This document shows positions 29,948-34,407 of a DNA stretch of 50,555 nt, piece by piece; the stretch's first letter is position 1; each line of letters begins with the position of its first letter. Made by a program: the position numbers and the translations under genes. The stretch covers positions 1-50,555 of the forward strand of contig JAITVN010000043.1 in the NCBI GenBank assembly GCA_031285775.1, in the 5' to 3' direction. Source of the stretch: Streptococcaceae bacterium. Its GTDB lineage: Bacteria; Bacillota; Bacilli; Lactobacillales; Streptococcaceae. The notes below the pieces were generated by a model, which saw nothing but the letters and a program-made list of their open reading frames with translations, was not told the DNA's origin and made no database searches.

Positions 29948-30035
29948 TTCTTTAATAAGCCGTTTTATCTCAATGATTTTATCTTTGTTTTCTAGAAATT
30001 TCACTTAACTGGGAGAAAAGTGGGCGAGGTAATAA

Positions 30036-30064
30036 AAAACTGTTAGATTAATTCTAGCAGTTTT
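30036..30064. terminator. Bidirectional terminator between the exporter genes and rgg
   Basis: AAAACTGTTAGA (30036-30047) pairs with TCTAGCAGTTTT (30053-30064, one G-T pair). There are T residues after the stem in the plus direction and a run of six T in the minus direction, so it can end both convergent units. Confidence 0.8.
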
Positions 30065-30074
30065 CTTGTTTTGT

Positions 30075-30989
30075 CTATGCTCTATTCTTGTCTTTGTCCT
30101 TGATCAAACAACCAATCTCGTTTCTGACAATGTTTGCAAGTTCATAATTTTCAGTGTACTTCAGGACGTCATAATAGTACCACATCTCTTTTAAAGCGAA
30201 CTCTGCTTCAAAATCTGATAGAAAATTGAAGCGGGCTTTGTCGTATTTCAACTCCATTTTTTCGAACAGCAACTGCGGATGAATGTCATAGTTTTCAAGT
30301 TCAAATAGTGCATCTTTCGCGCTTACCAGGTCTTTTCTTGTTAGAAAAGTATCTAAGATATTGAGGCTAGTGTCAATGAAGAGTTTGTTATCGTTAAAGG
30401 AATAAAGTTTACTCTTGTTTTTTGTAAACATTTGATTTAGCAGAAGATTCAACGTCTCTTTTTCAAGTATTTCTGTAGTCCAGCTGATCAAAGTGACTTC
30501 GTAGTGCCCCCAGTACTTGGTATTTTTCAGGAAGTGCGTGAGAAATTTTACTTCTTCAGAAGGCACTTTTCGAGTGGCATCCAAATGAAAGATGACCGTT
30601 TCTGCTAATATTTTATCCAGACGGAATCTTTTTATATTGGGCTGGAGTTGGATTCTTCTTTCTATTTTATCAAGTAGAATCTCCATTAGAGGCAGATTAT
30701 TCGAATTAGCTGCCTTGGTCAAAGCCCAATAGCTTGGGAAAAGATCAAGGCTGTTGGACAATTGATAAGATATATACTCGAATTCAGCCGCAGACACACC
30801 GATGTTTTCTAGGATCTCCATGAAAGAATCAGTGCCTATCATGGTTTCGCCTCTCTCAAAACGCGAAATTGATGCAGCAGACACATTTGAATCTTCTATT
30901 TCATGCTGGGAATACCCTTTTTCTTTTCTGATTTCAGCAAAAATATGGCCATATTCCCGATTAATTTTCCTTATCTTTTTATTTTTCAT
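30075..30989 (-). CDS. rgg: Rgg/MutR-family transcriptional regulator
   Basis: Rgg proteins bind short secreted peptides that are re-imported and then switch promoters. The 304 residues have an N-terminal XRE-type helix-turn-helix (about 12-67; FAEIRKEKGYSQHEIED...SRFERGE) and a C-terminal all-helical repeat domain (about 75-300) that would hold the peptide. The start codon has only a weak ribosome site, and a TAATAT -10-like sequence lies about 17 bases before it on the minus strand. It is divergent from a 27-codon hydrophobic peptide gene, the usual layout of Rgg/SHP pairs. Family is well supported; the exact Rgg group is unknown. Confidence 0.88.
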   Translation of the reverse strand: MKNKKIRKINREYGHIFAEIRKEKGYSQHEIEDSNVSAASISRFERGETMIGTDSFMEILENIGVSAAEFEYISYQLSNSLDLFPSYWALTKAANSNNLPLMEILLDKIERRIQLQPNIKRFRLDKILAETVIFHLDATRKVPSEEVKFLTHFLKNTKYWGHYEVTLISWTTEILEKETLNLLLNQMFTKNKSKLYSFNDNKLFIDTSLNILDTFLTRKDLVSAKDALFELENYDIHPQLLFEKMELKYDKARFNFLSDFEAEFALKEMWYYYDVLKYTENYELANIVRNEIGCLIKDKDKNRA

Positions 30990-31008
30990 TTTGACACCAA
31001 CGCTTAAT

Positions 31009-31053
31009 ATTAAAAACAGCTACTATTTTAAACATTAAAAACAGCTACTATTT
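31009..31053 (+). repeat. Perfect 20-bp direct repeat in the rgg-shp promoter region
   Basis: ATTAAAAACAGCTACTATTT occurs at 31009-31028 and 31034-31053, period 25 bases. The second copy ends three bases before the -35 of the peptide gene, a position suited to an activator. This is a likely Rgg operator, by inference. Confidence 0.75.
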
Positions 31054-31056
31054 AAC

Positions 31057-31084
31057 TTGACATTAATTTATTATATTATATAAT
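31057..31084 (+). promoter_or_regulatory. Promoter of the small hydrophobic peptide gene
   Basis: The -35 is TTGACA (31057-31062) and the -10 is TATAAT (31079-31084), spacer 16. The peptide ATG lies 33 bases further on. Confidence 0.75.
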
Positions 31085-31117
31085 TAAGTAAAGAATTTTA
31101 CAAATAAGGAGATTTTG

Positions 31118-31201
31118 ATGAAAAAGTACAAGCTCAATCTTATAAATCTGGCAGTTATCATCGTCAGTTTTGCAGCTTTCCACCATATTTGGCCCGTTTA
31201 A
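31118..31201 (+). CDS. shp: Small hydrophobic peptide (SHP-like pheromone precursor)
   Basis: A 27-residue peptide too short for routine gene calling. It has a basic start (MKKYK), a hydrophobic middle (LNLINLAVIIVSFAAF) and the C-terminal end HHIWPV. AAGGAG lies six bases before the ATG, an excellent ribosome site, and a near-consensus promoter and direct repeats lie upstream. Its layout, divergent from rgg, is that of streptococcal SHP genes, whose C-terminal 7-11 residues become the signal after cleavage and export. The sequence does not resemble the SHP classes I can recall, so a new pheromone type is possible. Function is inferred. Confidence 0.75.
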   Translation: MKKYKLNLINLAVIIVSFAAFHHIWPV

Positions 31202-31282
31202 AAGATTCATTTCCACGCTTCGAGCGGAATTCGACTCATCGTCCGAATGAAGTTGCGGGAAAAATCTGAATAAAGGAAAATT

Positions 31283-31330
31283 ATGTGTGAAAACTGCGAA
31301 GGGAACAGTAAGCCAAGGCTCCTGTCATGA
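31283..31330 (+). CDS. Possible 15-residue open frame in the shp transcript
   Basis: ATG at 31283 follows AAAGGA by five bases and opens a 15-codon frame, MCENCEGNSKPRLLS, ending TGA at 31328-31330. It has a CxxC pair. It lies between shp and the terminator at 31372, so it would be on the same message. It may be a real tiny gene, a decayed gene remnant or chance; nothing in its sequence identifies a function. Confidence 0.25.
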   Translation: MCENCEGNSKPRLLS

Positions 31331-31371
31331 ATGTCTATTCAGGATCAAAAGGCCTTTTGCAACAGCGATAG

Positions 31372-31403
31372 AAAGCAGGTTTATAAATGAAACTTGCTTT
31401 TTT
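31372..31403 (+). terminator. Terminator of the shp transcript
   Basis: AAAGCAGGTTT (31372-31382) pairs with AAACTTGCTTT (31390-31400, one G-T pair), followed by more T. From the promoter at 31084 this defines a transcript of about 310 bases. Confidence 0.75.
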
Positions 31404-31434
31404 GTAGTTTTTTCTGTAAAATAAAACTTATCTG

Positions 31435-33840: not shown

Positions 33841-34077
33841 ATGGAAAAATAATTTACCTTAGACGAGCTGTTGACATTTGACGGAAAAGAAGGACGTTCC
33901 GCTTATGTTGCTGTTGATCAGGTGGTTTATGATGTGACGAACATGCCGCATTGGATCAATGGGGAGCATCACGGGCGAATGGCAGGTCATGATCTTTCCG
34001 AAAGTATTAAGAAACGACACAAGTCGATTTTTAAGGCGCGCCATGTGCCAGTTGTTGGGAAATTGACTTCCTTATAA
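33841..34077 (+). pseudogene. Cytochrome b5-like heme/steroid-binding domain gene with stop at codon 4
   Basis: Reads MEK, stop (TAA, 33850-33852), then FTLDELLTFDGKEGRSAYVA and on to TAA at 34075-34077. It is clearly a duplicate of the next gene: both run MEK-x-(F/Y)TLDEL...YDVTN...W..G.HH...AG.DL...I...HVP(I/V)VGKL. The promoter and start codon spacing are the same in both. Unless a TTG at 33871 (no ribosome site) starts a shorter protein, this copy is dead. It also lacks the SPHG segment of its partner. Confidence 0.8.
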
Positions 34078-34146
34078 AATGCTACACGAAGCTGAATGAT
34101 GTGTCCAAAAAGACGAGACAGAAGTTCCCCTTCATCCCAGCCAAAG

Positions 34147-34155
34147 TGCTAAAAT
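34147..34155 (+). promoter_or_regulatory. Extended -10 promoter abutting the second cytochrome b5-like gene
   Basis: TGC TAAAAT (34147-34155) lies six bases before the ATG at 34162, the same spacing as in the duplicate upstream. No clear -35 and no ribosome site are seen. Confidence 0.6.
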
Positions 34156-34161
34156 AGGCAC

Positions 34162-34407
34162 ATGGAAAAAACATATACTTTAGACGAGCTGTCAGCATAT
34201 GACGGCAAAGAAAATCGCGCGGCATACCTTGCGATTGACGGAATTGTTTACGATGTGACAAACTTTCCTGCCTGGGCAGGAGGGAGTCATCACAAACAGC
34301 TTGCCGGCCGAGACCTGACAGACGCCATCAAAACAATCTCTCCTCACGGCACAGCCGTTTTGGAGGCACATCATGTTCCAATCGTTGGAAAACTGGTCAA
34401 AGACTGA
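34162..34407 (+). CDS. Cytochrome b5-like heme/steroid-binding domain protein
   Basis: A single small domain of 81 residues of the bacterial cytochrome b5-like class, with no signal peptide or membrane segment. Key features are the start YTLDELSAYDGKENRAAYLA, DGIVYDVTN, SHHKQLAGRDLTDAI, SPHG and the end PIVGKL. Relatives are thought to bind heme or a steroid-like ligand; no function is established. Probably translated from a leaderless message. The broken duplicate lies 84 bases upstream, and a terminator follows. Confidence 0.83.
   Translation: MEKTYTLDELSAYDGKENRAAYLAIDGIVYDVTNFPAWAGGSHHKQLAGRDLTDAIKTISPHGTAVLEAHHVPIVGKLVKD

Follow-up and report, generated by a model that had tools for sequence, protein, structure and literature searches.

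A divergent rgg and short peptide gene pair in a Lactovum relative, probably a peptide signalling cassette whose signal sequence is new

The locus lies in a stretch of Streptococcaceae DNA of 50,555 nucleotides, referred to as the window (50.6 kb). It consists of an rgg regulator gene on the minus strand and a 27-codon gene transcribed divergently from it, with the elements that may control both genes arranged between and around them:

30036-30064, plus strand: terminator-like hairpin between an ABC gene and rgg, possibly shared by both converging genes
30075-30989, minus strand: rgg, complete ORF for an Rgg/GadR/MutR-family regulator of 304 aa with an N-terminal HTH and a helical peptide-binding domain
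31006-31028, no strand assigned: direct repeat copy 1, 23 bp, AATATTAAAAACAGCTACTATTT, proposed Rgg operator
31031-31053, no strand assigned: direct repeat copy 2, 23 bp, 25 bp from copy 1 and ending 3 bp ahead of the -35 box
31057-31084, plus strand: peptide-gene promoter by motif match, TTGACA-16-TATAAT, 12/12 consensus
31075-31103, minus strand: candidate rgg promoter, TTGTAA-17-TATAAT, 10/12, overlapping the peptide promoter
31106-31111, plus strand: Shine-Dalgarno sequence AAGGAG, 6 nt 5' of the peptide-gene ATG
31118-31201, plus strand: shp-like gene for a 27-aa peptide, MKKYKLNLINLAVIIVSFAAFHHIWPV, divergent from rgg
31283-31330, plus strand: possible second mini-ORF of 15 aa, cysteine-containing, MCENCEGNSKPRLLS, with an SD-like AAAGGA, a candidate within the predicted peptide transcript
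31370-31402, plus strand: terminator-like hairpin with a 13-bp stem and then a T run, starting 168 nt past the peptide stop

The rgg ORF is intact, as expected from the original prediction of a full-length Rgg-type regulator on the minus strand. The encoded protein matches Rgg_C (5e-15, 56 bits, cut-off 27) and HTH_3 (33 bits, cut-off 23) in Pfam as well as TIGR01716 (2e-17, 63.5 bits, cut-off 36.9), in each case above the curated cut-off. Its AlphaFold model is all-helical, with a mean pLDDT of 85.9, and the top Foldseek matches in the PDB are Rgg2 (3.6e-11), Rgg144 (1.3e-10) and Rgg3 (2.5e-10), followed by PrgX; ComR is a weaker structural match. The sequence profiles agree with this fold-based placement, and the HTH, the Rgg C-terminal domain and the all-helical, TPR-like fold of the known receptors are those of the RRNPPA family. 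Identity to the structural matches is about 20%, so that pocket residues are not confidently transferable from them.

The peptide gene has the ideal ribosome site that had been claimed for it, with AAGGAG six bases ahead of the ATG. The SHP build proposed for its product is likewise seen in the sequence, which runs from a basic start (MKKYK) through a hydrophobic core to the short C-terminal tail FHHIWPV. A length between 20 and 35 aa, a basic N-terminus, a hydrophobic core, a strong SD and an rgg neighbour characterize SHP-type propeptides, and all are found here. None of the 27 residues is Asp or Glu; Trp occurs once, and the penultimate residue is Pro (IWPV). Neither Pfam nor NCBIfam contains a match to the peptide above cut-off, and the silence of NCBIfam is uninformative because the sibling peptides described below and a canonical-looking SHP are also unmatched there.

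The expected frequency of such an ORF was estimated with a composition-matched, first-order Markov null for the region 30990-31434. ATG ORFs that combine an SD with at least two basic residues at the N-terminal end and a strongly hydrophobic stretch appear in 0.24% of the null sequences, and in 0.02% when a 6-base SD is required. Under similar, fixed criteria, a divergent SHP-like gene within 300 nt is detected at 13 of 66 distinct rgg loci versus 0 of 645 control long ORFs, a rough background given that these ORFs include non-coding ones and all come from one conserved chromosomal region in named Streptococcaceae loci. When applied to the window, the detector is positive for one of 43 long ORFs, the rgg at 30075-30989. 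Next to the rgg of locus L011 it also picks out the canonical-looking SHP, whose last residues are GGIIVIGVG.

Of the promoter pairs in the window with a spacer of 15-19, only that of the peptide gene is perfect; it had been described as near-consensus, which was right as to its presence and understated its quality. Just 5' of its -35 box lies a 23-bp tandem repeat, AAtATTAAAAACAGCTACTATTT, whose copies are 96% identical and which the first reading of the sequence had missed. These direct repeats are proposed as the Rgg operator. A search of the source genome (about 90% complete) that allowed up to three mismatches places the core repeat at this locus and at two other sites only, each differing by three mismatches. 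Both of these fall within or at a gene of unrelated function (one murC-like, the other for a sugar ABC transporter), and neither is accepted as an Rgg target. The overlap of the candidate rgg promoter with the peptide promoter means that the repeats would fall in the rgg 5' leader. The hairpin at 31370-31402 had been assigned to the peptide gene as its own terminator. The hairpin exists, but this ownership is not clear, given its distance from the stop and the presence of its 3' half upstream of tRNA-Arg in the MAG Ehx436_bin1, a relative without the pair, so that the hairpin may be ancestral to the site.

The RNase Z encoded in the window is 84% identical to that of Ehx436_bin1 and 81% identical to that of Lactovum miscens DSM 14925, as opposed to 70-73% in other Streptococcaceae MAGs and at most 65% in Streptococcus. 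These values identify the organism as a Lactovum relative rather than the Lactococcus-like bacterium first supposed. L. odontotermitis has been described from termite guts (PMC12281737), and a termite source for the genome is no more than conjecture. An ABC transporter and tRNA-Arg(CCG) bound the variable gap that holds the pair (window 29948-31434, compared with loci L098 and L099). In L. miscens and Ehx436_bin1, rgg and the peptide gene are absent from the same gap, which holds a membrane-protein gene, LysE-like by eye, in the former and measures only about 370 bp in the latter. The GC content of the cassette is 37%, against 45-46% in the flanking genes, and no integrase is seen beside it. 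This is most naturally read as a variable site at which the cassette was acquired by horizontal transfer or lost.

Among 58 relatives and 335 family genomes, the best identity to the Rgg is 33%, and no closer relative appears in 395 genomes sampled from the order, GTDB contigs, plasmids, phages or IMG/VR; plasmid matches reach only 22-28% and the single phage match 29%. The full peptide has only chance-level matches in 295 family genomes, and the C-terminal pattern HIWPV-stop occurs twice in 335 genomes, both times by chance in frames without SHP features. The missing orthologues of Rgg and peptide represent absence, not disruption of the frame, and the HHIWPV tail is new as a sequence.

The same layout recurs at other loci. 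Ten Rgg-like matches are present in the source genome, four of which have a divergent SHP-like gene: the HHIWPV pair, C22 (...LLYRIIDF), C98 (...EPLYAVIMG) and, with a weaker score, C57. The tail PLYA-[FLV]-IMG is shared by C98, Ehx436_bin1 and another Streptococcaceae genus (g8), probably Lactococcus, with Rggs 70% identical; the loci are L060 (G000:C98), L002/L056 (G003, equated with Ehx436_bin1 by the identical position and identity of RNase Z) and L077 (G084). The siblings from Lactovum and other Streptococcaceae (tails PLYA-x-IMG, AHVIGGN, YRIIDF, YPIIIW, EVLPWG) resemble the HHIWPV pair in divergent layout, in SD and in the build of the propeptide, and their Rggs are about 30% identical to the HHIWPV one. 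They differ in their tails, and relaxase or radical SAM genes lie beside some of them. At the sibling pairs tested, neither tandem repeats nor a perfect promoter are found and the promoters are weaker, which makes the HHIWPV pair unusual in its control region. The shared PLYA-[FLV]-IMG tail supports the divergent layout as functional in these bacteria, though not the HHIWPV peptide in particular.

Several observations concern the siblings themselves. At L056, the peptide gene is followed downstream by a radical SAM gene. Two genomes belonging to another genus of Streptococcaceae carry MobA/VirD2-type relaxase genes (L077:2437-3750 and L083:2374-3711) next to Rgg-peptide pairs, suggesting mobilisable elements linked to pheromones. 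Locus L004, from a second species, encodes the same 25-aa peptide as L083.

Among characterized systems, Rgg/SHP groups I and II (Rgg2/Rgg3, RovS) share with the HHIWPV pair the divergent rgg-shp arrangement and a short propeptide with a basic start and hydrophobic core, and the Rgg has Rgg2 and Rgg3 among its closest structural matches. The signals of groups I and II conserve an Asp (I) or Glu (II) (PMC13361665), whereas the putative HHIWPV signal has neither, and its promoter differs in being full consensus. In group III, shp is convergent with rgg and overlaps its 3' end (PMC13361665); here the peptide gene is upstream and divergent. Leaderless communication peptides (RopB/SIP) comprise 8-10 aa and no leader (PMC13361665), unlike this 27-aa product with a leader. 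ComR/ComS shares an Rgg-like receptor and a short pheromone, but ComS is not divergent from comR, the HHIWPV peptide has no Trp-Trp, and ComR is the weaker structural match.

The pair most resembles RtgR/RtgS. RtgS is divergent, non-acidic and SHP-like, with Trp near the C-terminus, and in type A a penultimate Pro important for activity (PMC7018657), paralleling IWPV. Rgg1518/Rio84 likewise has a non-acidic, SHP-like pheromone with Trp near the C-terminus, and a second mini-ORF (Rio83) beside the pheromone gene (PMC9426450); by analogy, the mini-ORF at 31283-31330 might be a co-product of the peptide gene. In the Rgg1518 system, C6 and C8 peptides are inactive and C12 is active (PMC9426450). 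Both systems, from Streptococcus pneumoniae, share with the present pair an Rgg, a charged propeptide N-terminus, a signal outside the Asp/Glu rule and the Trp near the C-terminus. The differences are the single Trp in place of the Trp-X-Trp (WxW) of RtgS, a direct rather than inverted repeat as operator candidate compared with RtgR, and, relative to both, no adjacent transporter or bacteriocin-type operon. The original prediction had considered HHIWPV unlike known pheromones and possibly a new signal class. It is new as a sequence, but non-acidic pheromones with Trp close to the C-terminus were already known; RtgS, Rio84 and the non-canonical Rgg propeptides reported in the RRNPP_detector survey (PMC10075063) precede it, and the class claim is not well supported. 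A narrow search of the open-access literature found no report of Rgg/SHP in Lactovum.

The locus is probably a self-contained cassette for peptide signalling of the Rgg/SHP type, and its signal sequence is new; the pair as first proposed, minus the new class, is well supported by its anatomy, by the fold of the Rgg and by the comparative context. In the Rgg/SHP route, the peptide is exported, trimmed, re-imported and bound by Rgg (PMC5167397, PMC3150281). Here, by analogy, the strong promoter would yield the 27-aa propeptide, exported by a PptAB route and trimmed to its C-terminal residues, which would return through an Opp-type permease and bind in the helical Rgg pocket. At the level of family assignment, the genome carries an EcsB/PptB-family gene, one M50 (RseP/Eep-family) protease gene and four OppA-like genes.

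Apo-Rgg would repress the peptide gene and peptide binding would relieve this, a Rgg3-like mode that is somewhat favoured over Rgg2-like activation, since a full-consensus promoter is already in place and its -35 box is abutted by the repeats. Because Rgg would bind past the candidate rgg start, it would repress its own gene as well. Control is probably local, the repeats being limited to one locus; no obvious output gene adjoins the pair. A variant compatible with the signalling cassette, in which the pheromone pair is real and Rgg acts as an activator like Rgg2 or RtgR, is less likely. Repeats upstream of -35 occupy the usual activator position, the promoter spacer is 16 and not 17, and RtgR and Rgg1518 are required for expression (PMC7018657, PMC9426450); against this, a 12/12 promoter should need no activator, and the sibling peptide genes, whose promoters have weak -35 boxes, look likelier to depend on an activator.

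The Rgg could instead be a stand-alone regulator of the MutR/GadR type that does not use this peptide, the small ORF being translated into another small membrane peptide or non-functional. MutR and GadR are without known quorum-sensing functions (PMC9765709), about four-fifths of the surveyed rgg loci have no detectable divergent SHP-like gene, and the peptide frame has no orthologue in the genomes and collections searched. This reading is improbable in view of the roughly 0.2% chance of such an ORF, its full-consensus promoter abutted by locus-specific repeats, and the recurrence of the pair layout in relatives. A type I toxin-antitoxin system, with the peptide as its small hydrophobic membrane toxin and rgg as a chance neighbour, is very improbable: the length, single hydrophobic segment, strong promoter and accessory location would suit it, but no sigma-70-like minus-strand site for an antisense RNA over the peptide body or 3' region lies at 31130-31430, the nearby minus-strand promoter matches fall at or before the peptide start and read towards rgg, Rfam matches only the tRNA, the RNA fold z-score is only -1.7, and the peptide lacks the charged C-terminal tail that Fst-type toxins have.

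A more specific form of the signalling cassette is offered tentatively. HHIWPV, with one Trp, a penultimate Pro and no acidic residue, may be a new pherotype read by an Rgg acting on tandem 23-bp repeats at a full-consensus promoter, in a minimal, horizontally exchanged cassette that has no dedicated output operon and belongs to a wider, diversified Rgg-pheromone repertoire of Lactovum and neighbouring Streptococcaceae. Published work describes Rgg/SHP signalling as centred on Streptococcus (PMC13361665); evidence of many divergent Rgg-peptide pairs in Lactovum and in a further genus of Streptococcaceae would carry peptide quorum sensing over to these groups. Their diverse tails, one of them conserved across genera, would supply new receptor-ligand pairs for specificity studies, and the HHIWPV pair is a clean test case with a single promoter, repeat operator and peptide.

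Two minor points concern the window itself. A structured-RNA reading of the locus was rejected on the Rfam and folding results given above. At 33871-34407, between a deaminase gene and recJ, lie two consecutive small ORFs (68 and 81 aa); the second, of 81 aa, matches the cytochrome b5 heme-binding domain, and the 68-aa ORF is similar to it by eye.
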